Positions 2,697 through 61,603 of a DNA stretch of 64,000 nucleotides are shown one piece after another. This DNA is from Haliotis asinina. Its lineage: Eukaryota; Mollusca; Gastropoda; Lepetellida; Haliotidae. Under the pieces are notes generated by a model. The model did no database searches. It saw only the letters and a program-made list of their open reading frames with translations, and had not been told where the DNA came from. The first letter of the stretch is position 1. The number at the start of each line of letters is the position of its first letter. Location of the stretch: positions 35,046,249 to 35,110,248 of the forward strand of contig NC_090283.1 of NCBI RefSeq assembly GCF_037392515.1, given 5' to 3'. A program made the translations under genes and the position numbers.

Positions 2697-5600
2697 GGTG
2701 GGTTCAAGGCTGTTATCTGGACAGATGTGTTCCAGACGATTATCATGCTGACGGGGATCTTCGCAATTCTTATCAAGGTTTGTCATACTGTCTGAGGCTG
2801 TCCCAAGGTGTCAATACAACAGTAGATATCATCAACTGTATGTATGTCTGAGGCTGTCCCAAACTGCCATGTACCACAGGGCGGCTGAGAACACGTTTTG
2901 TCTTCTTGTAGGGGACATTGGAGGTTGGCGGACCAACAGAAATGTGGAACATCAACTACGAAAATGGCCGACTTAACTTTTTCGAGTGAGTGGTAGATTC
3001 ATGTTTCATAGTCACCCTTATAATTTTTAAATATAGCTGATTTTACCACGGTGCTTCAGTATGTTCATTGCACTTGAAACTTAGACAACGAATTAACAAT
3101 ATGGATTATTTCCTTGTAAAATATTATTGTACAACTCTCATAGGCATATTCAAGCAATACTATAAATTAGCTGCAGGAGGTTTCACGTCAAGAAACTGTC
3201 ATGTCAACATGAATATTAACCATTCAAACATGAACAATAGGCGTTATAAAGTTCAAAACTAAAATCGTAAAACAGGCCTTATCTATGATTCACACTACAA
3301 CCGTAAGTATTACTTGCAGGAAATATAATGGTATGTGTGAATCCTACCACAAGCTTCAACAGCGACTCACCTTTTGACTGAGTGTTGATGCATACGTGTG
3401 ATCAACACACAATCCCGGAAGTTTTACTTGAGGAGTGTAATGTGATGAATGTTTTATCACCAGCTTCAATACCGACCCTACTGTCCGGCACACTTTCTGG
3501 AGCTTGTTTCTGGGGTCCAGTATCAGGATGATCGGACTCACCATCGGCCAGGCAGCCATTCAGCGGATCTCTTCCACGCCAACCGAGCTGCAGGCCAAAA
3601 AGTGAGACATCTGGTTGACTGAGATTAAGCACGTAGAAACATGTTCTAAGTTAACATGACTGCAAGTTGTCTATTGTGTGTTTGTGTGTATGCTAGTTTG
3701 CAGGAATTTACGTTACTCCTAGACCAATAATATGTACTAATATTACGACAATTACTGAAAACCGAGATACAGCGATAAAGCGACAAAGCTGATGGAGCAA
3801 ACACAGTAACATTCAATATTGCGATTAGGAACAACGAAACACTATTAATGGACTTAGATGCACATACGGGAACTAACTTACATTGTGGGGCACAATGTAA
3901 AAGACAAGTAAACAATGTATCGAAATACCATGGAGCTCATTTAACACGCAATGAGAAAGGAAGCTGTATTGTCCTAACAGAATGCTGTTTGTAGAGTTTT
4001 GTTCATCACTGGCCCCGCCTTCTTTATCACCTTGACCTTGGCGACCTTGGAAGGACTGGTGGCGTTCGCCTACTACTACCACAGAGGCTGTGATCCACTC
4101 AAGTCCAACCAAATCACAAACCCTAATCAGGTAAACAGTAACTAGTCTGAATAGCTTTATTCCCCAAAATCCTCACTCCAATCATAAATAACAATAGACT
4201 CTAAATTATAGTGATTGTGTCTGTTGGGGACTTCTGTATATGTTTGGACTGGGGGTCTTGAGTATCTATATAGCGACGCATACTGTGTCTATAAATAGTG
4301 GATTGTCCCGTGTATGTTTATAGCTAGGTATCCTTTATACATAAATAGTGGATTGTTCTGTGTATTTATATAGTGGGTCACCCTGTGTCCATAAATGGTA
4401 GATTGTACCATGTATCTACATAGTGAGGTGTTCTGTGTTCATAAATAGTGGATCGTCCCATGTATCTATATCGTGAGGTATCCTGTGTCCATAAATAATG
4501 AATTGTTCTGTGTATCTATATCGTGAGGTACCTTGTGTACATACATAGTGGATTGTTTTGATTATCTATATGCTGCGGTAACCTGTGTCCATAAATAGTG
4601 TCGTTCCGTGTATCTAAATAGTGAGGTATCCTGTATATATAAATAGTGGATTGTCCATGTATCTATATAGTGAGATATCCTATGTACATGAATAGTGGAT
4701 TGTCCCGTTTATATAGTGATATCTCATATGCATATATATACTTGGTAGCTATGCATACATACATACATACATACATACATACATACATACATACATACAT
4801 ACATACATACATACATACATACATACATACATACATACATACATACATACATACATACATACATACATACATACATACATACATACATACATACATACCG
4901 GGAGTGTGATATGGTGTGTATATCTGCAGATCATTCCCTTCATGGTGATGGACATCTTCCGGGAATTGCCAGGCATGCCAGGTTTATTCATGGCAGCTTT
5001 GTTCAGCGCCTCACTGAGGTAGGGAGCTGTCACAGAAACACTGTATCACAAACGCCGGGCCACTTGACCAACCTACTTGACTAGACCACTTGACAAGCAT
5101 ACGAGATTACTTTGTCAGACCACTTAGCCAGACTGCTTGACCAGACAGATTACTTTGGCAGGTCACTTGGCCAGATCGCGTGGTCAGACCTTTTGATCAG
5201 ACCACTTGGCCAGATCACATGGCAGACCTCTTGACCAGACCACTTGGCAAGATCACATGGCCAGACCTTTTGATCAGACCACTTGGCAAGATCACGTGGT
5301 CAGGCCATTTGATCAGACCACTTGGGCAGATTACGTGGTCAGAACACTTGACCAGACCACTTGACCACATCACATGGCCAGACCTCTTGACCAGACCACT
5401 TGGGCAGATCACATGGCCACTTGATCAGACCACTTGACCAGATCACTTGGGCAGACTGAGTAGATATTCTATCACTGCTGTTGGTATTTCAGGACGTTCT
5501 CAGTATTAATAGTTAAACATTGCCGTACAATACAGAACCTGGTACAATACAGAACTATATCAAACCAATTGTATATTTTTCAAGTACTTTTTGTTGGTAG

Positions 5601-8600
5601 AATGGATTCTGATAATGTTACCCATTTGATGCCATGTACCACCCAGGCACATAGTAAAATACACACACACGAGCTAACGTCCTGTGTTGCAGCACACTGT
5701 CCTCGGGACTCAGTGCCTTGTCTGCACAGACCTGGGAGGACTATATCAAGCCGTATGTGAAGAATCCCTCCGAGATAAAGGCCACGATCATAGCCAAGTG
5801 CTCAGGTAGGAACAGATCCTGCCAGTGTGGACGTATTTTACATGTAGTGTGGTGTCAACACTATCCCCTCTCACTATCCTGTTGTGAGTGGTGCTGGAAC
5901 TGAGTAGACTCGCGGTGAATCGATCTACCGACTAGATAGACGTGAAAAGCGAAAAAGGAACTTCTTAAACCAAGTCACAAAATATGCAACACTGAGTGAG
6001 TAAAGCGTTCAATGTTCTATGTTTATGACGAAGTGGCAACACTGAGTGAGTGAAGCGTTCAATGTTCTATGTTTATGACGAAGTGGCAACACTGAGTGAG
6101 TGAAGCGTTCAATGTTCTATGTTTATGGCGCGGTGAAACCTTGAGGGAAAAGTGTTCACCCGTTACATCAAAGTTGTGAGTTCGATTCTCTACAGGTTAC
6201 TGTGTGTGCAGCAAATTTCTGTTGTGCCTGACGTCAGCTATCGATGGCTTATTGCTAAAACAGGCACAAAACCACAGTCAATGACAAAAACCTTTTTCTT
6301 GATGACCATAAATACGTTCATTCCACGTTCATCTTTGAATGATTGAGCATAATGAACTTTTGATTTGCTATTTCTGTGACTATGCAGGTCGGATACAAAT
6401 TTTTAAATGCATATGAAGTTATAAGGAACATACATGTATTGTAATCAAGTGTGTTTCGTCTATTCTGTAGTTGTGGCATGTGGAGGTGTTGCTGTCGCTA
6501 TCTCGCTGCTCATAGCCAAGGTCGGCGGGACATTGTCTCAGGTGAATGTTTCGTACTTTCACTGAATTAACTGAATAGATATATTTCATTGTAAAAAATA
6601 AGTTCATTATGGAAAGTCACTATACTTATCCACCTGTCCATAGTCAGTTACATAACAGGAAACAGAGAATTATTGATTAGAAACAGAAGTATATCACATC
6701 ATTACTGTTTTGTATTTCAAGATCTCATTCAGCCTCCTGGCTGCCTTTTCCGGTCCCGCCACTGGGCTTTTTCTCTTGGGAGCCATGATACCGTGGGCTA
6801 ATGTCCAGGTAAGCCAGTTAATGGGATACCCAGTAAGTCCGTAAAGTGAATGCCCTGTAAGCCAGTTAAGTTAATGTCCAGTAACCCAGTCAAGTCAGTT
6901 TCCAGTAAGCCCGTTACGTCAATGTCAGTAAGCCGGTTAAGTTAATGTCCAGTAAGCTAGTTACGTCAATGTCAGTAAGCCAGTTAAGTAAATTTCCAGT
7001 AAGGCAGTTAAGTCAATGTCCAGAAAATCCGGTAACTGAATGTCCAGTAAGCCAGTTAATTGGATGTCCAGCAAGCCAGTCAAGTCAATGTCCAGTAGGC
7101 TAGTTACGTCAATGTCAGTAAGCCAGTTACGTTAATGTCCAGTAAGCTAGTTAAATCAATGTCAGTAAGCCACTTATGTTAATGTTCAGTAAGCTAGTTA
7201 CGTCAATGTACGTAAGCCAGTTACGTTAATGTCCTGTAAGCCTGTTAAGTGAATGACCAAGTAAGACGGTTCACGTATTATTGCAACACGTGATTTAGCT
7301 GTGCTACGGATGGAGTAATGTAATAACTTATACTTAAAACGTGCACGTGTAAAAGCATGTACGTAAGAAGACCCTTCTGTTGTTTGTTTCTATCGCTATA
7401 AGATATGCCATATATCCATCATTGACACGTGTGGTGTGTCTGCAGGGGGCATTCGTGGCCACAGTTACAGGAGCCGTGTTTATCTTCTGGATCTCCATCG
7501 GGTCCTACATGTCCACTACAAAGCGGAAGACACCTTGGCTTCCTCTGGGACCCACAGACAGATGTCCAGTAGACAACATCACTTTCATCAGCGACTTTAA
7601 CTACACCATCCCAGACATTAGTGTGACGACAGAGGCCTACACACCGTGAGTTCATTAAGATATCGATCCATAATTTACAGATATTATTATGATGCGCAAA
7701 ATTTCTAACACAATGCAATAATAGCTATGCTTGTTATGGACAAGTATATTTATGTTAGACCGATATGATTTTATGTTCTGCACGCATACGTATGCCACTG
7801 AGTGATATCACTATACTACAGACAGGGCCTTGACAAGCTGTACTCGCTGTCCTATATGTGGTTCGGGGCACTTGGTATATTTGTGGTCGTAGCAGTTGGG
7901 GCTATCGTCAGCTACATGGCTAATGGTGAGTGCAAGTAGGGCGACACATACCTCATACCACTCAGCAATATTCTACGTTCTTTCTGTCTATCTCTGAGTT
8001 TTTGGCATAGTATAAAAAAGAGCCCATTGTTCGGTGACTGAAAGGTTCTGAGCCAAACTACTGATAGGTGACAGTAGCTAGCTGGTGTTCCGACATAATC
8101 CGCTCCAGGGTTCCGACACTAGAGCCAATATGCTGGAGCGCATGGCTTTTTAGTGTAGAAGACATTCCCTGGCGGTATGTAAAGTTCTCAACAACATAAA
8201 AGAGGTGATCATCTTTTGTTCACTGCTTTCTGGCTAGTTCTCCCTTTGGAGCAAATGGAAATGTTATGCTGGAGCAATATGCGTTTGGCTTAGCCAAATA
8301 ATTTTATGCAGTGACAATGCAGATTAACCCAATACTGACTATAAGGCATCTTCCGACGCTATCTTCCTGACTGATGAAACAAACTTTACATTGGTCAGAG
8401 ACGTAAGATAGCCTTCCGCCCACCGCTCCATGGTTACCTATCAAGAGACAGTTAGATGTTGCTTTGCTTTAGGACGATTTATATTCTAATTGGAGACGAT
8501 GTACCTTGATTCACCAACCTGCAATCCACCTTTCCGGAACCTTCGGCATGCTCAGTTGTTCTTCTCAGAATGTTCTCAGCTCAAGCGAGAGGCCTGTGAT

Positions 8601-18300: not shown

Positions 18301-21300
18301 GGTCAAATCTCATCTTCAGATGGATTGGGATCCATGAACTCCGTACCAAACCCGCCCGTTCTCCGACAGCACCCATCAAGTGAGTGAACATCGCACTGTT
18401 GGCACCGTCACTAGCGAGGTGTCACGAGTCTTGATCACTGATGAGTCAGATGGTTCCAACTAAACCGTGTGTCCGTGTGTATTTTCAGATCCGCCACAAT
18501 GCCTGGTGGGTTGTTTGCGATATCCCGTGACTATTTTACTCTGCTGGGGGCCTACGACCCAGGACTGGACTACTGGGGTGGAGAGAACATCGAGCTGTCT
18601 TTCAAGGTTTGGCTGAAAGGGGAGTCACCGGTCATGTCTAACAGTTGTAGTAAACACTGATCCTGAAGACATACGGGTGTTTCGTTAAAGCCACATAAAT
18701 TATATAAATCCAACTCCAACACTTTACGGCACTCGTATTACTGTAACAGCGATCTCTCAAAAGAACACACGAGCAGACAGATGATAGATCTTCTGCGGTA
18801 GAGATGTGTTGGTTGCAACCTTATATCTGTTAACTTTGTGGCAATATTGCCTGTCCATAGAGCAGGTGTGGATGTGTAAAGGGACATACTAATGACTAAG
18901 CACATACAGAGCTAATAATTTCTTACTGTTAACTGTTAACCATGCTAACGTTCTGGATTGCATTACGTCACGAGAGAATATCACAAAAGAACACACGAAC
19001 AGACAGACGACGAATCCTCTTTGGTAGAGAAATGTTGCAGGTTTGTGTGTAACGACAGCACTTTACAATACACTTGGTTTATTCATTACAGGCGTGGATT
19101 TGCTATGGCAGCACCCTACAAGTCCAGCTGGGTTTACCTGTTACAGGTGTGGACGTCTAACGACAGCTCTCTACAATACAGCTGGGCGTGTCTTTGATAT
19201 ACGTAGTTTTTGTTACGGCAGTTTCAGGGTATAGCTGGTTTTATTTGTTACAGGTGTGGATGTGTAACGGCAGCATAGAGGTGCTTCCCTGCTCACATGT
19301 TGGTCACATCTTTCGGCATAATAACCCCATCCTTTGGCCCATCCCTGGTAGTGATAGGAGGAACGCTGCCCGAGTGGCCGAGGTGTGGATGGATGACTAC
19401 AAGAAGTTCTTCTACGAGACCACTGGATCTGACAAGGTTAGTGATAGGAGCAGAAACATCGGATTCTGAAACACGTAGGAACACTGGATTCTGAGACAGT
19501 AGGTATTAATAATGAGAATGTACATGGTGTATACTGAAAATATTGATATTGGCAGATATGCTGTTGTCAGTGACAGGTGGGCATGCTGAATGGGGTGACA
19601 GGTATGTATAGTGAGGTCGTTGACAGGCAGATATAGTAAGGTGACAGGTGGATACACTGGGGTCCGTGAGGTGACGGATAGATTTACTGAGGTGGATATA
19701 TGTAATGTTATATTTCTGGATCTCAACATCACAACAGTTCCTGTTTCAAGTGGGTTTCTACAAAGATTAACCTCCATCCCATCCCATCCTATTCCCTCTA
19801 CCCCCTAAATGGATTCATCAGTACCATGCTGGTTGCAAATATCCGTTGAGTACAATGAGTTCATGGTATTCGGGCTAATTTGCATGTATTATTCCCCCTC
19901 AGGTTGTTGTTGGAGATATCTCGGAAAGACAAGAACTACGTCGGAGTCTACACTGCCACGACTTTGAATGGTACTTGAAGAACGTGCTCCCAGAACTTCC
20001 AGTGCCCACAGACTGTCTGACTGTAGGAGAGGTATGCCACCTGTATGCTCACACTCAGTGTATGTCTCAGTCCATTCTGTAGACCGAGGCACTCCACAGC
20101 GCTTTGTAAATTTTCATGATGCTAGTAGTAGGAGGCCCTCAGGTACTCACAATCCAAACAGACAAACGATGAAACGTTGAACGTTTCATGACTGTTCCAT
20201 CCAAGTACTTACCATCAAACACTATTCCTGTGTATGCTACTTATTGCAAGTCTACTTTTATTTCCAGATTCGGAATGCCGCCTACAGTAGCTGTATAGAC
20301 TCGATGGGGCGACAGTCCCTGGTGCCGAGCATGTACACATGCCAGGGCAAAGGATACAATCAGGTAGGGGCATAGTGACAACTACACAATGAGAAATACG
20401 GAATTAGATCATGACCTGGTTACCCTTAGGATACGTGTATAACACTTTGATAATAATCACATCTTCAGTAAAGAATTATCACGAGATAAGACTATTGCAG
20501 TTTCCCTTAGGCGAGATGCTTGTCGTAAGAGGCGACTAACGGGATCGGGTGGTCAGGCTTGCTGACGTGGTTGGTATATGTCATCGGTTCCCAATTGCGC
20601 AGATCGATGCTCATGTTGTTGATCACTGGATTGTCTGGTCCAGACTCGATTATTTACAGACCGCCGCCATATAGCTGTAATATTGCTGAGTGCAGAGTAA
20701 AACCAAACTCACTCACTCCTTAAGCGAGGCATCTGCGGCCCAGAACACATCCCTAGATCCAGTAAACTTACTTACTTAATGCAGATAAAATATTGGCTAT
20801 AAATGTTTTGTAGTTTTGTCTTCAAGTACACGTGCATATCCCCGTCCCTTGTCGTAAAAAGACTAAACTGGGATCTATATAGAAACCACAGACCCACCCA
20901 TACTCGCACAGACCAACACATACGCTTTTACTCACATCTTTGCAAGTCCCCACTTGTCTGTTTCTTGTTCCCATCTGCGTCTCTCTCAACCAACAGTTTT
21001 GGTGTATGCGTGACAATGGCCAGATCTGGAACTACCATCAACACCTGTATGTTAAGGGCGGGAATGTCTCCCTGAACCTGCGTCACGGAACAAGCTGGAC
21101 ATACACTCAGGTAAACGTTTGCCAAACACACTTAGGTAGATGTTAGCCAAATGCTCTCAGGTAAACGTTTGCCACATACGCGCAGGTAGACGTTTGTCAC
21201 TTACACCCAAGTAGACGTTGTGCCACATACGCCCAGGTAGATGTTAGCCAAATACATTCAGGTAGACGTTTTGCCACATACACTCAAATAGATGTTTGCT

Positions 21301-21611
21301 ACATACACTGGCTCAGATGTAACTAGAACAAGAAGGAAATATTGAAGAATACACACTTGTTGATTAAACATATTACAGCTTATAATTGCCACGGGCTGCC
21401 ACATAAATAATAAACTGACTGCAATGTATCTTTTGACATACTGAGCTGAAGAGTTAAAACTTAATCCTGCCTCGACTTGTTTTCGCAGGATGGACGTTTA
21501 CAAGAAAAGAATAGTGGAATGTGTCTACAGGCAGACAAGAAGATTCTCACCGTCCAACCCTGTTCTGGACACAGGTCTCAAGTGTGGACACTCACGCCAC
21601 GCCCTTCATAG
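15390..21611 (+). CDS. Polypeptide N-acetylgalactosaminyltransferase, tandem copy 1
   Basis: Eleven coding exons: 15390-15711, 15849-16002, 16136-16299, 16493-16657, 18169-18379, 18489-18606, 19254-19436, 19903-20031, 20268-20363, 20997-21110 and 21489-21611; 592 residues. GALNTs are Golgi type II enzymes that start mucin-type O-glycosylation by moving GalNAc from UDP-GalNAc to Ser/Thr. Visible parts: short cytoplasmic N-terminus, membrane anchor at about residues 22-38, stem, GT-A domain with [15 protein letters not shown] and LVDDASD (about 174-212), metal-binding DSH at 261-263, [33 protein letters not shown] with the likely third metal ligand His396, and [17 protein letters not shown]-terminal ricin-type lectin domain (about 475-590) keeps MCLQA and [11 protein letters not shown]. 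The start is the first Met of the block shared with copy 3. Intron 4 holds a broken Tc1 element and intron 9 a SINE. Family is certain; subtype is not assigned. Confidence 0.95.
16800..17950 (-). mobile_element. Broken Tc1-like DNA transposon in GALNT copy-1 intron 4
   Basis: On the minus strand a transposase N-terminus starts at 17741 ([18 protein letters not shown]) with a helix-turn-helix and a degenerate GRPR-like linker. Further on, the frame encodes [10 protein letters not shown] and [13 protein letters not shown], the hallmarks of the Tc1 C-terminal catalytic region. The middle of the transposase is deleted and there are in-frame stops (after LPHRQS and within the NPIEH region). I cannot fix the terminal inverted repeats, so the ends are approximate. 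Copies 2 and 3 lack it in the same intron, so it came after the triplication. Confidence 0.85.
18855..19253 (+). repeat. Serial copies of the exon-7 acceptor in GALNT copy 1
   Basis: Upstream of the true acceptor (CAG ending 19253, exon GTGTGGATGTGTAACGGC) there are earlier look-alikes: AGAGCAGGTGTGGATGTGTA near 18860, TTACAGGCGTGGATTTGC near 19087 and TTACAGGTGTGGACGTCTAA near 19142. In copies 2 and 3 a single GAGCAGGTGTGGATGTGTAA is the acceptor, so the site near 18860 looks like the ancestral one. The last copy appears to have replaced it. Confidence 0.75.
19437..19700. repeat. Short degenerate repeats after GALNT copy-1 exon 7
   Basis: Starting at the donor there are two ~28-bp units with GGATTCTGAAACACGTAGGA, then several ~22-bp units of the type GGTGACAGGTGGATA. 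The first units resemble the end of exon 7 plus its donor (GGATCTGACAAGGTTAG). Similar but different arrays follow exon 7 in copies 2 and 3. Confidence 0.65.
20519..20719 (-). mobile_element. SINE copy in GALNT copy-1 intron 9
   Basis: Reverse complement of the SINE at 14581, ending ACTCACTCACTC on the plus strand and keeping the core CCCAATTGCGCAGATCGATG. It lacks part of the 3' end. Approximate flanking duplications TTAGGCGAGATGC and TTAAGCGAGGCATC suggest the insertion boundaries. Confidence 0.85.
21097..21300 (+). repeat. Minisatellite seeded on the GALNT copy-1 exon-10 donor
   Basis: About seven units of ~30 bp of the type ACATACACTCAGGTAGACGT. Exon 10 ends ACATACACTCAG at 21110 and its intron begins GTAAACGTTTGCC, so the unit is the junction. 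Several units keep CAGGTAAAC or CAGGTAGAC donor-like sites. Confidence 0.88.
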
Positions 21612-31300: not shown

Positions 31301-31748
31301 CTCAGGCAGACTTTTGTGATATACACTCAGATAGACCTTTGTGACATACACTCAGACAGACCTTTGTCACATACTCACACACCTTTGTCACATACACTCA
31401 GGTAAGCCTTTGTGACATACACTCAGGTATATTTACCACATGCACTCTCCACATGCACTGTTATTACACTGACTCAGATGTAACTAGCACAATAAGGGAA
31501 TTGTGTAGAAGTGTTAATGCATTTTGATTATTAACCATAGAACAGTTTCCATTCGCCACAGATTGAAACAATATAATGTTTTCAGCAAACACGGTACTCA
31601 TTTCTTCCTCGATTTATTTTCACAGGATGGGTACTTACAAGAAAAAAGCGATGGACTGTGTCTACAGGCGGACAAGAAGACTCTCACCGTCCAACCCTGT
31701 TCTAGTCACTGGTCTCAGGTGTGGACACTCACGCCTCGCCCTGCATAG
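25337..31748 (+). CDS. Polypeptide N-acetylgalactosaminyltransferase, tandem copy 2
   Basis: Exons: 25337-25634, 25891-26044, 26337-26500, 28629-28793, 28949-29159, 29268-29385, 29686-29868, 30289-30417, 30667-30762, 31099-31212 and 31626-31748; 584 residues. All catalytic and lectin landmarks of copy 1 are present, including [22 protein letters not shown] and [11 protein letters not shown]. The ancestral start codon used by copies 1 and 3 is CTG here (25316); the next in-frame Met, [12 protein letters not shown] at 25337, still precedes the whole membrane anchor, so I chose it. An in-frame Met further upstream (25230) is possible if the upstream region is exonic. Intron 3 is expanded to 2.1 kb and differs from that of copies 1 and 3. 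Golgi type II O-glycosylation enzyme, as for copy 1. Confidence 0.93.
26045..26175 (+). repeat. Three units of the exon-2 donor repeat, GALNT copy 2
   Basis: About three degenerate ~48-bp units of the type GTGTGGCAGATTGTGTTGCC follow the exon-2 donor. They are the same family as the longer array in copy 3; copy 1 has at most one. It is an intermediate expansion stage. Confidence 0.65.
26501..28628. other. Expanded intron 3 of GALNT copy 2
   Basis: 2.1 kb against about 193 bp in copies 1 and 3. It contains a purine-rich microsatellite at about 27034-27115 (GATGAGGGTGACGAGGGT) that makes a spurious acidic open frame, and a tRNA-type SINE near 28390-28530. The rest I do not recognise. Confidence 0.6.
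28390..28530 (-). mobile_element. tRNA-derived SINE (second family)
   Basis: On the minus strand a tRNA-like head reads GGTGTAGCCTAGTGGTTACA (A-box-like) and contains GGTTCGATTCC (B box), followed by a body with GTGTGAGGCCC. It is not a working tRNA gene: no full cloverleaf can be drawn and it continues into the SINE body. A diverged relative lies at 55240-55345. Confidence 0.8.
31200..31440 (+). repeat. Minisatellite seeded on the GALNT copy-2 exon-10 donor
   Basis: About eight ~30-bp units of the type TACACTCAGGTAGACCTTTG. Exon 10 ends ACATACACTCAG at 31212 and the intron starts GTAGACACATG. Unit variants differ from copy 1 (CTTTGTGACA rather than GTTTGCCACA), so the two arrays were expanded or homogenised separately. 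Copy 3 has almost none. Confidence 0.88.
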
Positions 31749-36710: not shown

Positions 36711-39700
36711 ATGAAGATAAGGAAATGCGGCATGATGTTGCTGCAGTTTCTCCGACCACGTCGACTGATGCGACTGTTGATGTTCCTGTGTGGGCTGTTT
36801 GTCGGGATCATCTTCTTGACGGCTTATCCTGTCCCAAGGCACTACAAACGACCAATTCAAGTGTCTGACTCCTTAAAGAACACTGGAAACTGGTCTAATG
36901 ATCAAACTGATGTCACGTATCCTCCGTTTGTGGCTGAAAGCCCACCTCATGGACGAGGTATGGTCACAATTCTCCGTTGATAGATAAGACAGGTATTCTT
37001 CTTGAAAATGTAAAACATTCTATTTATTTCGGAAATAACTGCCGAAGACAAACATACTAATGTATGTTGTCATGTTGAGTAAAATGTACAATAAAAAGAC
37101 GTTCAAACGAATCTTTCCACTTTGAACGAAGCTATTATCGTGTATATGGCATGTGTCAACTACGAAAACCAACCTTGGCCTCCTTACACGAAGCAACCTT
37201 TACATTCTTTAACACTGCACTAAGGTAACATTAGTAAAGTTTGCTTCGTGAAAGGGGGCCCTGATGTATACACGTGGAAAACAGCTTCGTAGCACCCTAT
37301 ATTTTCATTGTGTCAGTATGCTACAATTTAAGCAGTGCAAAAGAACTTATTCAAGCATCATATAACTTAATATCTGGATATACTGATCAACAAGTAACAA
37401 TTTCTTGCCAAATGAGTTTAAAAATACATATTCAGAAGTTTATTAGAAGCAAGTATGGCATACACTGACTCAATTTGTAATGCCGATGGGGACGACCCAT
37501 TAGTGATTACAAATGTGGTCATTTTCAAGATTCCACAAGAAATCATACAGGCATCAGTAATCGAACACAATGTAAATATTTGGTCTTATTTCAGCCAACT
37601 GCTATACCACCCCCGACCTCACTAATTGTATCAGACGGTGAGTTTGACATTGAGACGTTGAGATCTTAATTTAGGGCTTGTTCCAATACATTGAGATTTC
37701 ATAGTCGACGATGTCTGGTATTGGGTAACAAACATGCTGAAATCTGGACTCCTGTCTGGCCATGATAGAGCTGTTACCATCTCTTAATATCAGAAATCAC
37801 CAGCAACACGTGCAGCGGTGTTGTCTAGCATTGTCATTATGAAGACTGACCTTGTGTTCAGAGGACGGTCGTCGAAATGTGCTGCAACAACCCTGTTTCT
37901 TCATCACAGATTTCAGTGATGTTAGAAACTGTTCCTGCTGCGCCAATCACGTACTCAGCTATCAAAAGAAATCGTATTTTGGCCGACTAGTGGAGCTTTC
38001 TACATGGGCTGAAATCCCAGTGACATTGAACATGACATCAAGCTAGTCGTACTCACCTGTGCTGTGGGCACATCAACGGACGTCCGATAGGCGAAGGTTG
38101 TAGAAGCCACTCTATTTTCAACACACCACTTGGTATGAACCGATAAAGTCGTATGATTCCTCTGTAGAAGTTGTCTTTCGTGGTGAAAAACATTCTGTCA
38201 AGGTAATCATGCAAACAGTCATGACTGTGATTTTAATATAAATGGCTATATGGTTGAAAAAATGTTAGGTGTTGTGACACTTTATCCCATGTATATACTG
38301 GCCGTTCCCACTATGTTTCGCTGATTGATAGAAACTAATTTTCCAGGTGAGTATGGCCGCCCAGTGACCGTCTTCCCAAACCACCTTTCAACTGAAGCAA
38401 TGCAGACATTTGATGAAGGCTTAGAAAAAAATAGCTATACCCAGAAAGTTGGTGAAATTGTTTCCGTGACCCGTCGACTTCCGGAACCAGGCCCTCCAGA
38501 GTAAGTGTAGCAGGTGTTCCCAGAAACCCAGGGACCAGAGAGTACGTGTGGCAGGTTGTGTTCCCGAGCACTCAGGGACAAGAGATTAACTGTGGCAGGT
38601 TGTGTTTCCATGAACCCAGGGACCAGAGAGTAAGTGTGGCATTTTGTGTTTCCATGAACCCAGGGACCAGAGAGCAAGAGTGGCAGGTTGTGTTCCCAGG
38701 CACCCAAAGACCAGAGAGTAAGTGTGACAGGTTTGTTCCCAGGAGCTCAGGGACACAGGGACCACAGCGTAAGTGTATAAGGATGTGTTACCAGGAACAC
38801 GGGTCCAGAAAGTACATGTTCTAATATTATGTTCCTAAGAAGCCAGGGACCAGAGAGTAAGTATGACGGACTTATTGTTCCAAGGAACCCAAATACCAGA
38901 GATGTGACATGGTCTCAGAAGTAGAATTTATTTCAAAATTCACTTCATTGTGTTTCTGTAGAAGTAGAAGTACATAATGTTTTCTATGGGTGTATTACTT
39001 GCGCTGTTTCTCTATAAATGCAAGCAAAACTGAAGCCAGCTGTTACAGGTACGTACGTCAACAATAGCATCTTCTTAGACAGCATTTTCAGTGATCAACA
39101 CGCACGCAATTGTCCACAAATTAAATTAATGACATCGGTGAGATCAATAATGTAATACATACCATACCATTGTGAGAATGGCCAATTTGTTTTCGGTTTT
39201 TGCGTTTGCATGGTTACCGAATGGAATGCCGCGTACTCACTAGTGATACAGAAATTTAATGCAAAGGTCTGCATTGTTGTAAGCTTATACTAATGTATGT
39301 TCCAGATGCCAGTTACAGAATCATCAGAGCAGGCACAAGGCGAGTGTCATCATGTGTTTCCACAACGAAGAGTGGTCTACCTTGCTGCGCTCCGTGCACA
39401 GTGTCATCAACCGTTCACCACCACACCTCCTCCAGGAGATTATCCTTGTTGACGATGCGTCAAACCTAGGTGCGTGTCACAATTACTACATCTCATACTA
39501 ATGCACGTGCATCCTCGTTTTTCCATTTCTAATAACATCAAGGCATGTGGAATACACTTCGTGCCCCTCCCCTCTACGTGAAACCTACACTACCGCTCAA
39601 ATTGTGATGACTTTGAGCAACTGATACAGACGGATTTACATTGATTGTGTATATTTGTCCAGAATATCTTGGTGCAGCCCTCGAGAAGTACATGTCAACG

Positions 39701-42641
39701 CTGGGCATAGTGAAGATACTTAGGACCGCTCAGCGGGAGGGGCTGATAAGAGCAAGGTTGTTGGGCTACAAGCACGCGATGGCCCCTGTCCTCGTCTTTC
39801 TCGACTCACACATCGAGTGTTTTCCAGGTAGGGTCTTACAGTGGCAATATCATCACGGTTGAACGTAAACATGACAGCATCATACTTGGATATGGTTCTT
39901 TGGTTTCTTTCATTATATCACCTATCTCTACATTTCCAAAGATGGGAAAGATGCCGCATGGCAAGAAACTATACAATGATTTATAGTAGAGTATCTGTTG
40001 CTAGGCTGGCTTGAACCTCTGCTGGATCGGATTGCTGAGGATCCTTACGCCGTCCCCTATCCAACAATAGAGTCTATCAAGCCGGACACATTGTCAGTCA
40101 AACCCCATGCTCCCCTCAGCGTTGGGACATTCTCCTGGTCAAACCTTATCTTCAGATGGATTGGGATCCATGAACTCCGTACCAAACCCGCCCGTTCTCC
40201 GACAGCACCCATCAAGTGAGTGAACATCGCACTGTTGGCACCATCACTAGCGAGGTGTCACGAGTCTTGATCACAGATGAGTCACATGGTCCAACTGAAC
40301 CGTGTGTCCGTGTGTATTTTCAGATCCGCCACAATGCCTGGTGGGTTGTTTGCGATATCCCGTGACTACTTTACTCTGCTGGGGGCCTACGACCCAGGAC
40401 TGGACTACTGGGGTGGAGAGAACATCGAGCTGTCTTTCAAGGTTTGGCTGAAAAGGGAGTCACCGATCATGTCTAACAGTTGTAGTAAACACTGATCTTA
40501 ATTAAACAAAGTGTTTCGTTAAAGCCACAAAACGCCAACACATTAAACTGACACTTTATGACACGCTCCCATAATACTGTAACAGCGAAACCACATCAGA
40601 AAAAAACACATGAAGAGACAGATGGCACTCGGGGGTGAAGATGTGTTGCATGCTTGGTTTCAACGTGTTAACTTTGTGACCAAATCCACTGTGGGACATC
40701 TGTGGATGCGTAACGGAAATGGCACACAAAGCTGGGTTCATTTGTGTCACTGAATGTTTTTAAAATTCTGGATTACACCACCAGTGTCCTTAATCTCTGT
40801 GGAGCAGGTGTGGATGTGTAACGGAAGCGTGGAGCTGCTGCCCTGCTCACATGTAGGTCACATCTTCCACCACAACAACCGCATCCACTGGCCAACCCCT
40901 GGTAGTGTGAGGAGGAACGCTGCCCGAGTGGCCGAGGTGTGGATGGATGATTACAAGAAGTTCTTCTACGAGACTACTGGATCTGACAAGGTTAGTGATA
41001 GGTGCAGAAATATGGTAAGCTAACAACTGAGAAGGTCGATGGCAAGTGGTGAAACCGAAAGGGGGAAATACTTAGGTCAAGTATTTTGGGGGGTAACACT
41101 GAGGTCGATGACAGCGGGAAATACTGAGAAGATCAACGACAGGGGGAAATACTGAAAGGGTCTGTGACAAGTAGAAATTCTTAGGTCGGTGACAGGTGGA
41201 TACAGAGACAGTCGTAAAAATTGTATTCTTTAATCTCAAAATCATTACGCCTTTGAGTGGGCGTACAGATGAGGACTACTTCCTAAGCGATTCATCAGTA
41301 CCAAGCAGGTTGGAAATATCAGAGTTCAGGGTACTCTGGCATTTCTTGGATGTAATCACCACCGCTAATTTGCATGTATTATTCCCCCTCAGGTTGTTGT
41401 TGGAGATATCTCGGAAAGACAAGAACTACGTCGGAGTCTACACTGCCACGACTTTGAATGGTATTTGAAGAACGTGCTCCCGGAACTCCCAGTGCCCACA
41501 GACTGTCTGACTGTAGGAGAGGTATGCCACCTGTATGCTCACACTCAGTGTATGTCTCAATCAATTCTAGTGGTTGGAGGCTCAGTCACTCATAATCCAA
41601 GACAACCAAACGTTGAAAGTTACTTACCATCAGCCATTCTGTAAGTTCTTGTTACTTCGGCTTAGAAGTTCTGTTACTGGAGGTGTACTTTTTCCTAGAT
41701 TCGGAACGCTGCCTACAACACCTGTTTAGACTCGATGGGGCGACAGTCGAAAATGCCGAGCATGTACACATGCTATGGAAAGGGATACAATCAGGTAGAG
41801 TCATAGTGACCACTTTTTCCTTTCATATACTGCTAACATATGGTCTGTGACGATGTATACCATGATTCCAGTTTGGGGATTACAACCTTCTGTGGTTGAC
41901 GGTCATTTGTATTCCTGAGCGTTACCTTGGTGAACATTCAACATATCCATGTTTCTGCAGGTGTATAAACCGTGAGGGTAACGGGTAGAATGTGTAACCA
42001 GCACTCCACTGCTGGCAGTAATAGGTGACTAGCATTACAACCGTTGGGATTCCAGGTTTAAACTGGTCCCTGGAAACCAAGAGATGGCAAAATAGTAGCT
42101 GTCCAGCGGTCGTGTTGAAACGAAAGTGCTCGTTGGTTTAAACAGAAAATTGTCATAACAAAATTAACAACACACGCCTTTAACTTAATTTTCCCTTATG
42201 GCCTCTGCTAATTTCATCTCTCTCAAACTACAGTTTTGGTGCATGCGTGACAATGGCCAGATTTGGAACTACCATCAACATCTGTACGTCATGGACGGGA
42301 ATGTCTCCCTGAACCTGCGTTACGGAACAAGCTGGACGTACACTCAGGTACAATTGCCTAATACACTGACTCAGATGTAACTGGCACAAGAAGGGAATTG
42401 TGAAGAAGTGTTAATACATTTGACTATTAACCATGGAACAGCCTCCAATGGCAACAGATTGAAACAATACAATCTTTACAGAAGACACGACACTTATTCC
42501 TTCGACTTATTTCCACAGGATGGGTACTTACACGAAAAGACCGATGGACTGTGTCTACAGGCGGACAAGAAGACTCTCACCGTCCACCCCTGTTCTGGAC
42601 ACAGGTCTCAAGTGTGGACACTCACGCCACGCCCGTCATAG
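36711..42641 (+). CDS. Polypeptide N-acetylgalactosaminyltransferase, tandem copy 3
   Basis: Exons: 36711-36957, 38347-38500, 39306-39469, 39663-39827, 40005-40215, 40324-40441, 40808-40990, 41393-41521, 41699-41794, 42234-42347 and 42519-42641; 567 residues. An ATG lies immediately upstream (36708), so the protein may have one more Met. Membrane anchor [19 protein letters not shown]; the stem is about 25 residues shorter than in copy 1. Catalytic [22 protein letters not shown] and the lectin [11 protein letters not shown]-type end are intact (here [11 protein letters not shown]). Exon 3 begins with a diverged stretch ([11 protein letters not shown]) where copies 1 and 2 have CRSLSHQN, but the rest of exon 3 matches copy 2 and intron 3 matches copy 1. 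Function as for copy 1. Confidence 0.95.
37177..37260. mobile_element. Small fold-back element
   Basis: 84 bp whose ends are inverted copies: GGCCTCCTTACACGAAGCAA and TTGCTTCGTGAAAGGGGGCC, with CTTTAC and GTAAAG next to them. It would form a hairpin with a ~30-bp loop. Non-coding, in GALNT copy-3 intron 1. Confidence 0.75.
38495..38890 (+). repeat. Minisatellite seeded on the GALNT copy-3 exon-2 donor
   Basis: About eight ~48-bp units of the type CCAGAGAGTAAGTGTGGCAG followed by GTTGTGTTCCCAGGAACCCA. The true junction is CCAGA/GTAAGTGTAGCAGG at 38500, so each unit copies the end of exon 2 and its donor. At least four units retain GAGA/GTAAGT, as good a donor as the real one. Confidence 0.9.
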
Positions 42642-44197: not shown

Positions 44198-47100
44198 TCA
44201 GTAGCTTGGAGCATTGTGACTGCCATAGTTGTAGCCTGCTGCAGGCTGCTGGTACTGCCCATACTGGGCCGGGTACTGACTACCACTGCTGGGATACCGT
44301 TTACGTGACGACAACTGGGACTGGCTGCCACTCATCTTCCTGCGTTGCTGCTGCTGCTGCTGCTGTTGCTGCTGTTGCTGTTGCTGCTGCTGCTGCAGTA
44401 TGGGCAGTCCTCCTTCCTTAGCCAGTTTCTGAACAGCTGAGAAGTGACATTTTGTCACTAACTGGAGATCTTCAAATACTGAAAGAAATCCACAACTACA
44501 AACTGGATCTTAATGACAAGATGGAAACAGAAATATTACCTCTGTGATATTGTTTTTCTTATCATCATACACCACAGCGTTATTTTGAGATTTCCAAAAT
44601 GCTTCATTAAAAAGAAGTGATCATGGGGGAAAATATTGTTTCTTCTAAACATGATAGATGTCATATATTCTTTCTAATCAAGACAATACACACTTGAAAT
44701 GTATTACTAGCTTAGGGAAACACATTCTCAGTTTTGCGTTGTTATCTAGATTTTGAAAAGCGGTATGAGAAATTTTGAATTTGCTATTCTTGTAATCCTG
44801 TGGACACTTTTACAATTAAATGCAAAGAAATATTCCCCTTTAGCAGCATAGGTTTTGTCATTAGCCGTATATGTCAACATTACGCTACCTTTAGCAGCAC
44901 AGGGTTTGTCATCGGCTGTGTGTATCAACACTTTCTCCTACCTTCAACAACACAAGTTTGTGATCGGCTGTGTGTATCTACACTTTATCTTACCTTTAGC
45001 AGCATAGGGTTTGTCATCGGCTGTGTGTATCAACACTTCATCTTACCTTTAGCAGCATAGGGTTTGTCAGTTGTGTGTATCAACACTTTATCTTACCTTT
45101 AGCAGCATAGGGTTTGTCAGCTGTGTGTATCAACACTTTATCTTACCTTTAGCAGCATAGGGTTTGTCAGCTGTGTGTATCAACACTTTATCTTACCTTT
45201 AGCAGCATAGGGTTTGTCATCAGTTGTGTGTATCAACACTTTCTGCAGGAAGGACACCATAGCTGCAGTTGACAACACCTGCTCTGAGAGTGGCAGAGTT
45301 GAGAAGAATGGAATGTCCACGGCAAATGGATTACGGGGAGCTGGATATGTGCATAACTTGACCAGCTCTGCGATGATGTCCCATATAAACACATCTGTAA
45401 AGTAAGGAGGTGTACTTCCAACATAAGATGTTAGATGATTAGTACCTTTCACACTTTACACCTACACCTTTCACACTGTACACCTACACCTACAACACTG
45501 TACATCTACAACACTGTACACCTACACCTACAACACTGTACACCTACACCTACAACACTGTACACCTATACCTACAACACTGTACACCTATACCTACAAC
45601 AATGTACACCTACACCTACAACACTGTACACCTACACCTACAACACTGTACACCTATACCTACAACACTGTACACCTATACCTACAACAATGTACACCTA
45701 CACCTACAACACTGTACACCTATACCTACAAACTGTACACCTATACCTACAACACTGTACACTTACACCTACAATACCGTACACCTATACCTACAATACT
45801 GCACACAGTACCTACAACTGTAGTTATACCCAATGGTTGAGAACTACATAAGAATTTGCCTGATCTACTTCCCGTTCCATGCATAGTGTAGTCAAGTATA
45901 GTTAGTTCACTATGCATGGGCTTCAGTTCCTATATAACTTTTCAAAGATGATTAATGTCTGTCTAACATTGTGTTTTAGAGATGACTTAATTTAATTGGT
46001 AATACATTATGTCATAAACTAAATGTCCCAAAACACAGTTAAATGATGTACTTGTCCATCTATTTACCTCCACCAATGTTTAAGAAATACAACGTTCAAG
46101 TCTTAAATGTCTGGTATGCTGCGAAATATGTCACATTTTACTATCTGCACATGGTATCATTATTATTAATCAATAAATAGGATCTAAATGATTGCCTTTG
46201 TCAAATTGTTGTACTTTAATCTAAGATTCCAAACATTCGACAAATGCACTAAGATCTGACCTAACCCATGTGAACATAACTATAGTGCTGTGAGGAGGGA
46301 GCATCTCTGCTGTATACATATTAAATTATGTTCCCATCATTCATGTGAGCAGACTACTACAACAACTTCAAGCCCTGGAACAGAGACCTCACTAACATGC
46401 TGCTCTGTTGGATACATATGAACAAATGAAGTGGTTTTATGATTGACCTGAGGCTTGACATATCAGTCAGTCCACAGTAAAAACTTTCACCTCAGATGAC
46501 TTGATGATCGTGATGACACATAGATACTGGTTAAAACATCCATGTCAGCTCTTCCTTTATACACCTTATTACTGACATGTGTTCTGTCGTTCAAAACAAC
46601 CTTAGTTAAGACCAACCTTAAACACTAAGGTTAGAGTTACGATCACCTTAAGAAAAAGATACGTCCGTTGCACAAAACCTTGTGGCAACCTTAACTTGGA
46701 CTCAACCTTAGCCGTAACCTTAACTAAGGCTGAAATCTTAGATCAGATCGGCAATATGTCATGTTTTTCTCACACCCTAACATTTTGTCTTAGATCATGG
46801 AACTATCACTATTACTTGCAAACACATTTCACCTGATAGTTTATTCCCCTCATAAGAATTAAAGGTGCATGTGAAAGATGTTTTGAAGTAATAACTAGAA
46901 CCACTCAAACAACGGCGTATAGAATTTCAATGGCGGATCAGAGCAGATCGGTGACATGTCACATTTTTCACACACCTCAAATACATCCTAACATTCTTTT
47001 TTAGACTATGAAACTATCACTATTACTTTGCAAACACATTTCACCTGATAGCATATTCCCCTCATATGAATTAAAGGTGTATGTGAAAGCTGTTTTTGAT

Positions 47101-57200: not shown

Positions 57201-60200
57201 GTCAGGCATTCACAGATGACTACGAGGATGTGCGCAGGGCGGCAGTGAAAGTGGTGTGGGTTCTTTGTCATCTTTACCCAGAGAGGTTAGCTCAGTCAAT
57301 AAATTCTTGCTTGTTTCTTGGGTGAAAAGAAGTAGATTTTCAATAAGTAAGAGGGCATTATATCTTGAGACTCCTGCCAGTGTCAGTGTTTATATCTGAT
57401 ACAAGTTTCTGGTTTTCAGTCTAGTGTTCCTATATATTTATACCCCTGCTACGAAGTAACGCGAGTATATAGCGTTCATTCCGTCCATCCATCATACCGT
57501 CCACAATCTTTGTCTGAAGCATATCTCTTAAAGTTTTCATGCGAGGTTCACCAAACTTCAGACTAATGTTAATCATTACCCACAGCTGTGCCCTTTGCTA
57601 TTTTGAAGTTTTGAATTTTGTTTTTGCTGTTTCCATGGAAACATGACCTAGTGCCAGATTTGTTTGATGTTTTTAGTCAGGAACTTATCTCTTAAAATTT
57701 ACATGTTAGGTTCACCAAACTTTACACACATGTTAATCATTACCCATTGATGTGCCTTTTGTTGTTTTTGTTTTTTCTGAATTTTGATTTGTTGTTGTTT
57801 CAATGGAAACATGACTTAGTGCAAATTGTGTTTGAGGGTCCCTGGGCACAGCATATCACCAAAACTATGAATGCTATGTTCACCAAACTTAATACACAAG
57901 TTAATCATGACCCACAGACATGCATGTGCTATTTATTTGCAAATTGTGATTATTCAAAGTGTGATGTTCATTTTTTCTGTGTTGCAGCCTGGTACCTGTG
58001 TGTGAATCATCAGTAGAGGAGCTGCGCCTTGTAGATGATGGCTTTGCTAAGATCTGTAACATGATCAATGATATCTCAGTGAAGGTTCGGGTGGAGGCTG
58101 CTTCTCTGCTGGTGAGATGTTGCTATGATGGTTACAATAGAGAAAGTTACTGCTTTGGGTGAATCTGACAGTGTGTATATGTTTCTCAACAATCTCAGAA
58201 CTGTGTGCCAGATCTATTGCCATTTTGTCGAGTCAGTCCTGTGTGGGCCTCAGAAGTATTTGAATTGTTGAATGTGTTTTTCCATGTATGTATTCTGACC
58301 TGACTCAGACGGTGTCCTACATGTGTTTGTATTTCAAGGGCTCTCTACATCAAGTCAGTCCTCGATTCCTTGAACAAACCCTGGACAAAAAACTGATGTC
58401 CAACATGAGAGTAAGTAAACAGATTTGATCAGAGTAAATTCACACATATACTTTACTGCTTTTGCTCAGTAAGTTAGCTAGCATTATGAATAGATTGATT
58501 TTTCCTCAAAAGTGTTAGTGATGTAAGCAGGGCATTATTTCTTGTAAATTTTTATCCCCCTGGCATGTAATGTAATCATTTTACTTGCGGAGCATAACTC
58601 AAAAACTTGGTAGATATATCAGTCAAAACCTAAATTGGTGCCTTCTGCTATCTACAGGTTTTTGTGATTTATTATTTTCTCAGTTTCCATGGAAACTTTT
58701 CGGACTTAGTCTCAAAAGTAAGCGGTGTGTTTTGTTTTCAGAGCACAGCTTGAAAACTTCATAATATATTTCAACAAACTTGGCAGATATGTGAGGCAGA
58801 CTCTTGTCATGTTTGTTTTTCTGGTTTCCATGGAAATGATTCAGACTTAAGTCTCAAAAGGGAGGGGTGGGCTTCGTTTGCAGAGCACACCTGAAAGCAT
58901 TTTCATAGCTATCAGCTAAATTTGGCATATATGTGAGGCAGATCCCAAAGTGATGCCTTTTGCTACTTACAGATTTTTGTGGTTTATCATTTTCTGGGTT
59001 TCCATGGAAATGATTTGGTCTCAAAAGGGAGGGGTGGGTTTCGTTTCCAGAGCACACCTGAAAGCATTTTCATAGCTATCAGCCAAATTTGGCATATATG
59101 TGAGGCAGATACCAAAGTGATGCCTTTTGCTATTTACAGATTTTTATGGTTTATCATTTTCTGGGTTTCCATGGAAATGATTTGGTCTCATATGGGAGGG
59201 ATGGGCTTCGTTTCTGGAGCACAACTCAAAAACATTTGATATCTTTCAAGATGTATGAGACGGAACTTGAAGTGGCGCCGTCTGCTGTTTACAGATATAT
59301 GGCATTTATCCTTTTCATGATTTCCATGGAAATGATTCAGACTTGGTCTAAAAAAATCAAGATTTGTCCTTTCAAATATGTGGGTACTGGAGAAGATATA
59401 ATTGTTTATTGCCCAATAACATACTTGATTTTATCTATTCAATTATCTATTTGTTGTGTGAAGATTCATCTTAGATTACCATTTGTTGCTGTTAGAGAAA
59501 GCACAGTGCCCATGAACGTGCCAAAGAGCATTTCCAGTCTGGTGAATGGTCAACAGGCCAGAAATGGGCTGATGATGCTCCCAAGGAGGAAATAGATCCA
59601 GAAAATATCAATCTGATGAACATCGGAGCATGTGGAGCTTTCATACATGGACTTGAAGATGAGTTTTATGGTAAGTTTTCAAAGTTTGAGAGGAATGAAT
59701 GCTTTGAATATTTGTTGCAACATATTTTGCCTAGGACATGACATATTTCTATGATAATCTCTCCTATCAAGTGGCACAAGCATGCTTAATCATCAAGTGT
59801 CCTACACCTGGTACCACAAGAAACCCAACCCTAGGACATTCATTTCCCAGAAAACTTGAAAAACAACAATGCTGGCCCTTGTTACTGTATCCTTTTACAC
59901 TTATACTGTAACTCTTTACTGACTGCAGTATAGAAGTGGAAAATCTTTATCATAACATGGAAATAGTTTCAACCATATGTCGTGTGTTGTAGAGGTGCGT
60001 AATGCAGCTCTAGACTCGCTGTGTGAGCTGGCAGCTCAGTCCAGAGTGTTTGCCAACCTATCACAGGATAGCATCATCGACATGTTCAACGATGAAATTG
60101 AGAGTGTGCGTCTGAATGCCATTAACAGTTTGAGGAAAATCTCACACCACATTGTGCTCCGACAAGACCAGTTGGAGATCATCCTTGGTGTCCTGCAGGT

Positions 60201-61603
60201 ATGTTCACAGAACTGTCATGTATGAGGGTTCATAGAGGCCACATAGGTGGGTCCGCAGAACTGTCATGTGGGTGGGTTCACAGATGTCATGTAAGTGGGT
60301 TCAGGATTTGCAATGTGTATAGATTCACAGATTCATGTGGGCAAATTTGGGAGCATGGTTGGTATACGTTGCCGTATCCAAATTACATGGATTGATGCTC
60401 ATGATATCAATCACTAGATTGTCTAGTGAATACTCATTTCTGTACAGACTTTTGTCTTATATATCACAGGAATAGTGCTGAGTGCTGCATAAACATTCAA
60501 ACAAACAAACCTAACCAGTAAATGCAGAACTTTCTATGCTCAGGATTTTTCTGGAACAACTCGTACAGACCTGCGTGACATGCTGTGTGACATGCGTCTG
60601 TCAAACAAGGAGTGTCTGAATGACACAGTGCTGGCTCTTTTAGACAACCTTCGCAGATACCCGCAGGACAGGACCTCGGTCTGGAAGTAAGTACAACAAA
60701 CCAGCTTGTGTTGTTCATGTAGCACCCAGAACCTTTCTGCTATACACATTGTACAACAAACCAGCTTGTGTTGTTCATGCAGTACATCTGAACCTTTCTG
60801 CTATACACATTGTACAATGAGCCAGCTTGTATTGTTCATGTAGGACAGTGATCCAATGTGCTGTACATATTATACTATAAACAAATGTGCTGTACAAATT
60901 GTACAATGAATTGTATGTTTAGTAACATTTCCATTTCTGGAGAATCACTGTAGATGTGTCTTGGGTATGTTGCAGGTGTTCCATGTTTTTGGGGAAAAAC
61001 CACCCCCAGCTGTGCCTGACCCAGGCACGGGAACTTCTGTGTATTCACCCCTACTTCAACACTCCAGTTCCTGACATGGATGACCCAGCCTGTATCCTTC
61101 ATTTGACATGTGAACTTTCTTAACTAAAAAATTACTCTATAAGTGATACAAGTACGATGTATCTAAAGTTGCATTTCACTAGCTTCAAAGTATAAAAAGC
61201 CATCTCTCATGGAATGGAATTTGGAAAAATAATGCATGCCTTTTATTTTGGTTTCAAAAAATAGTATGTAACAGCTGTGGACAGTCAACCTAAGAAACTG
61301 TCCCCTGATATACATGTGATCACTGAATAAAATGCTGATAAATTTGTTTCCTTTTAACCCAATTAAAATCAAACAGTTTATGTCCTTGCTGTCATTGTAA
61401 GGTGTATTTTGTAACTCCCTATTCCTAGCCAGGAGGCTTTCATGAACACGTTCTCCTTGATGCCAGTAGATATTGCTATCCTGGTGCTGATGTTCAATGC
61501 CTGTGTGGATTGTCCCACACTGATTCCCCTGCTGCAGGACCACACACTGCAACACTACACCTATCTGCGTGACAGCCAGCCCCACCTGGTGCCCATCCTG
61601 GCG
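54264..61603 (+). CDS. INTS4: Integrator complex subunit 4, 5' and central part
   Basis: Exons: 54264-54317, 54878-55190, 56089-56198, 56609-56782, 57146-57285, 57988-58111, 58339-58410, 59496-59670, 59993-60198, 60544-60686, 60976-61091 and 61470-61603; 587 codons, all phases consistent, and the gene continues beyond the window. INTS4 is a nuclear HEAT-repeat scaffold of Integrator, which cleaves snRNA and other RNA polymerase II transcripts; with INTS9 and INTS11 it forms the cleavage module. Recognisable segments: MAALLKKR at the start, FFSDQDPRVRTSAFQAM, VRRAAVKVVWVLCHLYPE, LRLVDDGFAKIC, FLEQTLDKKLMSNMR, SGEWSTGQKWADDAPKEE, GACGAFIHGLEDEFYEVRNA, DMFNDEIESVRLNAINSLRK and YTYLRDSQPHLVPIL, all matching vertebrate INTS4 in order. 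The start ATG follows GGAGAAA, a good context. Intron 12 holds a retroelement fossil. Confidence 0.97.
55240..55345 (-). mobile_element. Diverged SINE fragment
   Basis: The minus strand starts CTGAGTGAGTGCGTTTGGTT and continues TTCACACATTGCATCCATGT, the head and body of the second SINE family (see 28390). The tRNA-like part is missing or too diverged. It lies in INTS4 intron 2. Confidence 0.6.
55346..56088. other. Rest of INTS4 intron 2
   Basis: AT-rich intronic DNA. I see no coding, repeat or RNA signal beyond the SINE fragment upstream. Confidence 0.55.
57425..57985. repeat. Dispersed repeat with TTTCCATGGAAAC palindromes, INTS4 intron 5
   Basis: Starts TACCCCTGCTACGAAGTAAC, then has two ~165-bp segments each with GGTTCACCAAACTT, TTAATCATTACCCA and TTTCCATGGAAACATGAC. 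Related to the array in intron 7. Probably the remains of a dispersed element; class unknown. Confidence 0.7.
58540..59490. repeat. ~167-bp tandem repeat, about five units, INTS4 intron 7
   Basis: Units carry TTTCCATGGAAATGATT, GGGAGGGGTGGGCTTCGTTT and AGCATTTTCATAGCTATCAG. The middle units are nearly identical and the outer ones diverged. They share the TTTCCATGGAAA palindrome and layout with the repeat in intron 5. Open frames here are not genes. Confidence 0.88.
60199..60330 (+). repeat. Short repeat starting at the INTS4 exon-9 donor
   Basis: The intron begins GTATGTTCACAGAACTGTCATG and variants of GGGTTCACAGAACTGTCATG recur three to four times over 130 bp. The first unit includes the donor; exon bases are only weakly included. 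Confidence 0.7.
60335..60510 (-). mobile_element. Old SINE copy, INTS4 intron 9
   Basis: A strongly diverged reverse copy of the first SINE family, with GATGCTCATGATATCAATCA, ATTGTCTAGTG and GTGCTGAGTGCTGCATAA in the expected order. About a quarter or more of positions differ from the younger copies. Confidence 0.6.
60687..60870 (+). repeat. ~73-bp repeat starting at the INTS4 exon-10 donor
   Basis: Two near-identical units and a diverged third, of the type GTACAACAAACCAGCTTGTG followed by TTGTTCATG and ATACACATT. The first unit begins four bases into the intron, within GTAAGTACAACAAACC. Confidence 0.85.

Follow-up and report, generated by a model that had tools for sequence, protein, structure and literature searches.

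Minisatellites across 5' splice sites in unrelated genes of Haliotis asinina: a recurrent feature of an already known kind

In the human 6-16 (IFI6) gene, a minisatellite reported in 1995 is said to bear a series of donors which, to go by the title, are used there; one gene only is concerned. A broader precedent comes from amphioxus, whose so-called mirages are minisatellite-like duplications over exon-intron boundaries in Adh3, TnC, the globins BflGb6 and BflGb9, and PGBD5. Their units measure 10-160 bp, many contain splice signals, and 5' and 3' boundaries are both hit (PMC3087553, PMC3902484). Human segmentally duplicated genes contain variable minisatellites as well, some of them at exon-intron boundaries; all variable repeats of that study taken together, the average unit is 30 bp and the average number of repeats is 4 (PMC2812944). 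Within the genus considered here, intron 3 of a TSSK1-like gene of Haliotis discus hannai holds a 27-bp, length-polymorphic intronic minisatellite (PMC6905558). In the literature searched, which covered few subscription journals and some sources in part, we found no boundary-spanning array in a mollusc. Here we describe such arrays in a stretch of 64,000 nucleotides of Haliotis asinina (contig NC_090283.1, positions 35,046,249 to 35,110,248 of the forward strand; hereafter the window) and in genes elsewhere in the same genome. With a probability of roughly 0.7, we consider them to be mirage-type minisatellites, that is, tandem duplications across an exon-intron junction that were tolerated and then underwent neutral minisatellite turnover. 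An original prediction made from the window had supposed recurrent arrays anchored at donors to be undescribed; the amphioxus mirages and the human cases precede it (PMC3087553, PMC3902484, PMC2812944).

The assembly searched comprises 1.14 Gb, and its SINE-like elements have a gastropod look. In the window we modelled 59 introns, all checked for frame, in an SLC5-like transporter gene (Pfam family SSF; modelled in part), three tandem GALNT-like genes, a minus-strand gene with a DUF7886 domain, and INTS4. GALNT copy 1, the sole copy scanned for domains, has Glycos_transf_2 and ricin lectin domains, and the best PDB match of the last gene is human INTS4. In the joined gene models the reading frames stay open across the called junctions. 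Tandem Repeats Finder (TRF) yielded 25 arrays for the window after merging, and modelled introns contain 19 of these. For the main counts we used minisatellites of at least 100 bp with a period of at least 10, a class with 15 intronic members in the window. Seven of these 15 start inside a donor or at most 12 bp from one, and none starts so close to an acceptor.

The best case in the window is that of the DUF7886-domain gene, where a 50-bp minisatellite (44837..45242, minus strand) crosses the donor 45197|45196 of intron 5 of the modelled part, after the exon 45197-45394. Its unit is made of about 43 coding exon bases followed by GTAAGAT. The array thus holds a ladder of donor copies, which we call decoys; GT is retained in 6 of the 7 that could be aligned, and four match the true donor exactly. 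The exon plus array was reported at one place in the genome, unlike what a dispersed element would give. In the SLC5-like gene a minisatellite with a sub-unit of about 24 bp (6799..7265, plus strand) crosses the donor 6808|6809 of intron 10 of the modelled part, which was counted as intron 8 in the original prediction. Ten exon bases lie inside it, and its most frequent decoy reads CCA|GTAAGC, compared with the true CAG|GTAAGC. Two arrays in INTS4 (plus strand) are weaker examples. The one in intron 9 (60189..60303, at donor 60198|60199) begins 10 bp within the exon, and its donor content is weak, with just one poor decoy aligned; the 61-bp minisatellite of intron 10 (60690..60847) starts 3 bp past the donor 60686|60687, and alignment recovered no decoy donor from it.

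The three GALNT copies make it possible to compare the same junction in different states. In intron 10 of copy 1, a 25-bp minisatellite (21099..21309, plus strand) crosses the donor 21110|21111 and keeps GT in all 6 aligned decoys. The homologous 25-bp array of copy 2 (31225..31429, plus strand) lies 12 bp past the donor 31212|31213, with GT kept in 3 of 6 aligned decoys, two of which clearly outscore the true donor. Since these two arrays are homologous, the window holds fewer than seven independent events. At the homologous donor of copy 3 (42339..42374, plus strand, placed by alignment) there is no array, and the direct repeat TACACT straddles the donor with the two occurrences 23 bp apart. 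This 6-base repeat, with a spacing close to the 25-bp period of copies 1 and 2, may be what a seed looks like. Intron 2 gives a different distribution: copy 3 has a 44-bp minisatellite at the donor 38500|38501 (38498..38754, plus strand), with more degenerate copies visible by eye to about 38910; copy 2 has about two to three degenerate copies by eye and no TRF array; copy 1 has none. Introns 2 and 10 themselves are common to all three genes, with or without an array. The 3' side can be duplicated as well: in intron 6 of copy 1 (19084..19280, plus strand) diverged upstream copies of the acceptor region are seen (acceptor score 26).

Most of what had been claimed for individual donors is borne out by these arrays. 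Those of SLC5, of intron 10 in GALNT copies 1 and 2, of intron 2 in GALNT copy 3 and of the DUF7886-domain gene stand, and the claim that in the clearest cases the unit contains the end of the exon together with the donor agrees with the SLC5, GALNT and DUF7886 arrays. The assertion that four unrelated genes are involved holds well for three of them and weakly for INTS4, and the GALNT arrays of introns 2 and 10 occur in some copies, that of intron 10 being absent from copy 3. Two further proposals are not confirmed. The array suspected at the donor of GALNT intron 7 begins 32 bp downstream of that donor in copy 2, and copies 1 and 3 have no TRF array there; at position 2778, the donor of SLC5 intron 3, from which an array was thought to run, TRF found none, and by eye an 18-bp stretch occurs twice only.

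Is the excess at donors more than chance? With uniform placement and an exon overhang of 20 bp, 1.3 donor starts are expected among the 15 arrays of the window (p 5.5e-5), and 2.4 with an overhang of 60 bp (p 0.004). All 19 merged intron arrays of the window, whatever their size, give a donor p of 0.007-0.017. A sample of other introns was obtained by whole-genome Pfam searches, from which we took pairs of successive exons in genes of the myosin, SSF, SNF, kinesin and dynein families; SSF, the family of the SLC5 gene of the window, was thus sampled outside too (7 introns). The pairs were picked blind to repeats, were restricted to conserved domains and were spaced within 3.2-4.5 kb. The profile matches entered into pairing numbered 110 of 125 for myosin, 52 of 100 for SSF, 76 of 122 for SNF, 127 of 128 for kinesin and 88 of 88 for dynein, the others having been excluded by eye, mostly as stop-containing or isolated, before any inspection of repeats. 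Reading frame, the gap in the profile and splice signals served to place the junctions. Of 91 pairs in the first set, no junction could be set in one, and a junction score below 8 removed 15 of the other 90, leaving 75 introns (25 myosin, 32 kinesin, 11 SNF and 7 SSF); 5 of 61 dynein pairs were removed, leaving 56. This makes 131 introns. Nineteen of the 25 myosin introns derive from one tandem cluster, and none of these has an array at TRF>=50.

In these 131 introns there are 14 minisatellites that reach 100 bp; 6 of them cross a donor and 2 an acceptor. The six donor arrays lie in six different genes (two myosins, two kinesins, two dyneins) and start 9-58 bp inside the exon; as a fraction of the introns sampled they amount to 6 of 131, with a 95% interval of 1.7-9.7%. 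Uniform placement with 20-60 bp of exon overhang predicts 1.6-2.4 at donors (p 0.001-0.014) and the same number at acceptors. Window and outside samples together have 13 of 29 arrays at donors and 2 of 29 at acceptors (binomial p 0.007, paralogues uncorrected). The dynein set was a fresh sample for which the size class had been fixed beforehand; 2 of its 3 arrays are at donors (p 0.032, and 0.006 or 0.069 with other overhangs). On this small-scale check the pattern extends to six genes beyond the window, with enrichment at donors and none at acceptors, although the first, looser test was non-significant, as set out below.

Exon bases are clearly part of the unit in 5 of the 7 window cases and in all 6 outside donor cases, and also in the 2 outside acceptor cases. 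In the dynein gene at C4:21013844, 55 exon bases and the donor occur in six near-perfect copies, the exon's own included. In the myosin gene at C4:329544 (locus C4:329484-330797) nearly all of an 855-bp intron is taken up by two arrays, first one with a 41-bp unit that carries the donor and then one with a 24-bp unit that carries the acceptor; up to 11 decoys there are identical to the real donor, the closest being 41 bases away. The copies in the donor arrays inspected at the myosin and dynein loci include the exon end.

Several results weigh against a bias towards donors, or against the idea that tolerance is sufficient. The first outside test took 22 arrays of any size (TRF>=50, overhang 45) and found 4 at donors and 3 at acceptors at 12 bp, with a donor p of 0.14-0.20 at 5 and 12 bp. 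At TRF>=35, 39 outside arrays gave 4 and 5, respectively (donor p 0.45-0.56). The class of at least 100 bp and period of at least 10 was adopted after this looser test had proved non-significant. In the dynein set, which consists of three arrays only, the pre-specified test of donors plus acceptors gives p 0.12. A local copy of the 45-mer was found for 12 of 174 donors and 6 of 174 acceptors, as against 50 of 710 positions in intron interiors. By this test donors are not uniquely repeat-rich. It measures coverage, and interior coverage arises from arrays that start anywhere upstream; donor 45-mers being copied no more often than interior ones, the excess lies in array starts and not in donor coverage. 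The start would mark the founding duplication, because a growing array displaces its neighbours without overwriting them. Finally, pure tolerance predicts no donor excess, and so leaves the bias unexplained. Our conclusion is that a donor bias is supported, and that it is small in numbers. As acceptors are also duplicated, anchoring at donors is a bias that admits exceptions.

One candidate line of evidence was set aside. Arrays away from donors have an excess of AGGT in the sense orientation (49, compared with 12 antisense), and a single array contributes 31 of the 49.

If the decoys were kept for a purpose, their motif might be expected to betray it. Among the aligned decoys of 11 arrays, scored in the best register within 2 bases, 69 of 78 have GT, and 49 score no lower than the 5th percentile of real donors. 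Conservation of the decoy motif beyond the rest of the unit was looked for in 12 arrays and was not found: identity to the first copy, gaps counted, averages 0.83 for the donor core and 0.86 for the flanks, the core being lower in 7 arrays and higher in 4. An alternative count that skips copies gapped at the junction (among them most of those of SLC5) gives 0.86 and 0.87 in 11 arrays. The spacing between copies is divisible by three in 18 of 67 instances, and frame is not kept. Of 11 arrays, that of GALNT copy 2 alone has decoys that clearly outscore the true donor; in four others (GALNT copy 1, intron 2 of GALNT copy 3, the DUF7886-domain gene and the C4 myosin) decoy and true donor tie. In all 7 window cases a stop in frame is met no more than 33 bases into the intron, so that translation as far as most decoys would leave the protein truncated. 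In GALNT copy 1 the first decoy (+25) precedes the stop, and its use would shift the frame. The decoys appear neutral or decaying, and we see no sign of their being kept.

Four other readings can be weighed against mirage-type duplication. The arrays might be there by chance, since arrays are common and some will lie beside donors, or gene models and assembly might mislead. About 7% of interior 45-mers do have a nearby copy, and there is the non-significant first test. We think this unlikely: the units hold coding sequence of the neighbouring exon, enrichment is seen in both window and outside samples, and the junctions are backed by open reading frames and by homology with human INTS4. A splicing function for the ladder, whether as a buffer against donor loss, as a tunable leak to transcripts destined for decay, or in recursive splicing through AG|GT, can draw on the preserved GT and the donor-like scores of many decoys, and AGGT sites able to serve as both donor and acceptor are described in human (PMC10809524). 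The unremarkable core, the irregular spacing, the near stops and the rarity of stronger decoys all speak against it, as does a homologous GALNT copy that manages with no array. The splicing role that had been suggested for the decoys thus finds no support, and we regard it as very improbable. Least probable in our estimate is that we are looking at the remains of intron gain, that is, at introns born by tandem duplication of an exon segment bearing AGGT. AGGT is present in many units, the C4:329544 myosin intron consists almost wholly of a donor array and an acceptor array, and such an origin has been proposed for amphioxus globins (PMC3087553). That myosin intron position is also found in another myosin gene (C3:75290910), introns 2 and 10 are present in every GALNT copy regardless of array, and the copies in the donor arrays we inspected carry the exon end.

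The fourth reading deserves more attention, as it addresses the bias. Transcription or splicing at the donor (nicks associated with U1 or R-loops, or the step in composition between exon and intron) could promote the start of duplications, making 5' splice sites a mutational hotspot. Depending on overhang, donors have about 2.5-8 times as many starts as uniform placement predicts, acceptors are near expectation, and start offsets peak in the bin from -60 to -1 (11 compared with 4.5 expected) and not in that from 0 to 59 (3 compared with 4.5). On the other side stand the equal rates of local copying at donors and interior sites, the small total of 13 donor-anchored arrays, two of them homologous, and the scatter of unit starts across 58 exon bases with no clustering on GT. 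It is a tentative suggestion, to which we would give somewhat less than even odds, that minisatellites of this lineage arise preferentially at 5' splice sites, with a mutational process tied to the junction seeding arrays in a small percentage of introns. If correct, exon ends would be a major source of minisatellites, and there would be thousands of decoy donors genome-wide.

Under mirage-type duplication, which we prefer, the history of an array might run as follows. A small tandem duplication of about 25-105 bp, arising through slippage or microhomology, would by chance straddle an exon-intron junction. The exon-proximal copy would remain coding and keep a working donor, and additional copies would land in the intron, where they would be tolerated because splicing presumably prefers the exon-proximal donor. 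Copies of a 3' splice site would probably be filtered out, since splicing would turn first to an acceptor lying upstream. The array would then expand, contract and diverge as ordinary minisatellite DNA, its decoys under no selection.

Other repeats and genes of the window and of the sampled loci can be listed more briefly. Intron 6 of the SLC5-like gene has an interior array (4262..4712, plus strand) 131 bp away from the donor, and further interior arrays lie at 248-715, 5104-5456 and 5986-6127. In intron 4 of the DUF7886-domain gene, a 22-bp array rich in sense AGGT (45451..45806, minus strand) lies some 50 bp before the acceptor and crosses no boundary. Long minisatellites are also found outside modelled introns, at 10199-11085 (29-bp unit), 22959-23541 (53-bp) and 32931-34517 (43-bp). 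INTS4 intron 11 (61091-61470) we take to be of the U12 type by its look, with the donor GTATCCTT and with TTCTCCTTGAT just ahead of the acceptor; the frame joined across it agrees with human INTS4. Judged by motif, 16840-17780 and 34600-35170 may be remnants of Tc1-type transposases, and a 170-aa open frame at 63379-63891 may be a fragment of a tyrosine recombinase. Outside the window, acceptor-side local copies unlisted by TRF were seen in an SSF gene (L062) and a myosin gene (L045). A dynein gene at C6:55023582-55025645 has two neighbouring exons for one AAA_6 segment (82-122 and 83-121), which are candidate mutually exclusive exons. At C5:73.57-73.88 Mb there is a tandem cluster with 13 matches to one stretch of a muscle-type myosin motor (about profile positions 235-381); it resembles the tandem Mhc genes reported in the limpet Lottia (PMC3912159).

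What we have is a real, recurrent feature of an already known kind, in a new genome. If mirages are common beyond lancelets, exon-intron junctions would quite generally give rise to minisatellites and spare splice sites, a curiosity two decades old would become testable genome-wide, and it could be studied how the spliceosome passes over as many as 11 identical donors, as in the C4:329544 myosin. A 17-base pattern from the Haliotis discus hannai TSSK1-like unit (PMC6905558) was matched in this genome at no more than 3 scattered places, each with one mismatch. Human UBC shares with our arrays the repetition of AGGT in tandem, as dual-specific sites, but there the repeats are coding and variably spliced, whereas here the copies are intronic and contain stops (PMC10809524). 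The human boundary repeats alter splicing or make new introns in recent primate paralogues, in contrast to the arrays described here, for which there is no sign of use (PMC2812944). The amphioxus mirages are the nearest match. Like them, the Haliotis asinina arrays span boundaries, carry splice signals and occur in several unrelated genes, INTS4 being a weak member. Normal mRNA and length instability are reported for the mirages from experiments, whereas our arrays are known from the sequence of one assembly; unlike for the mirages, the donor excess has here been measured against placement (PMC3087553, PMC3902484).

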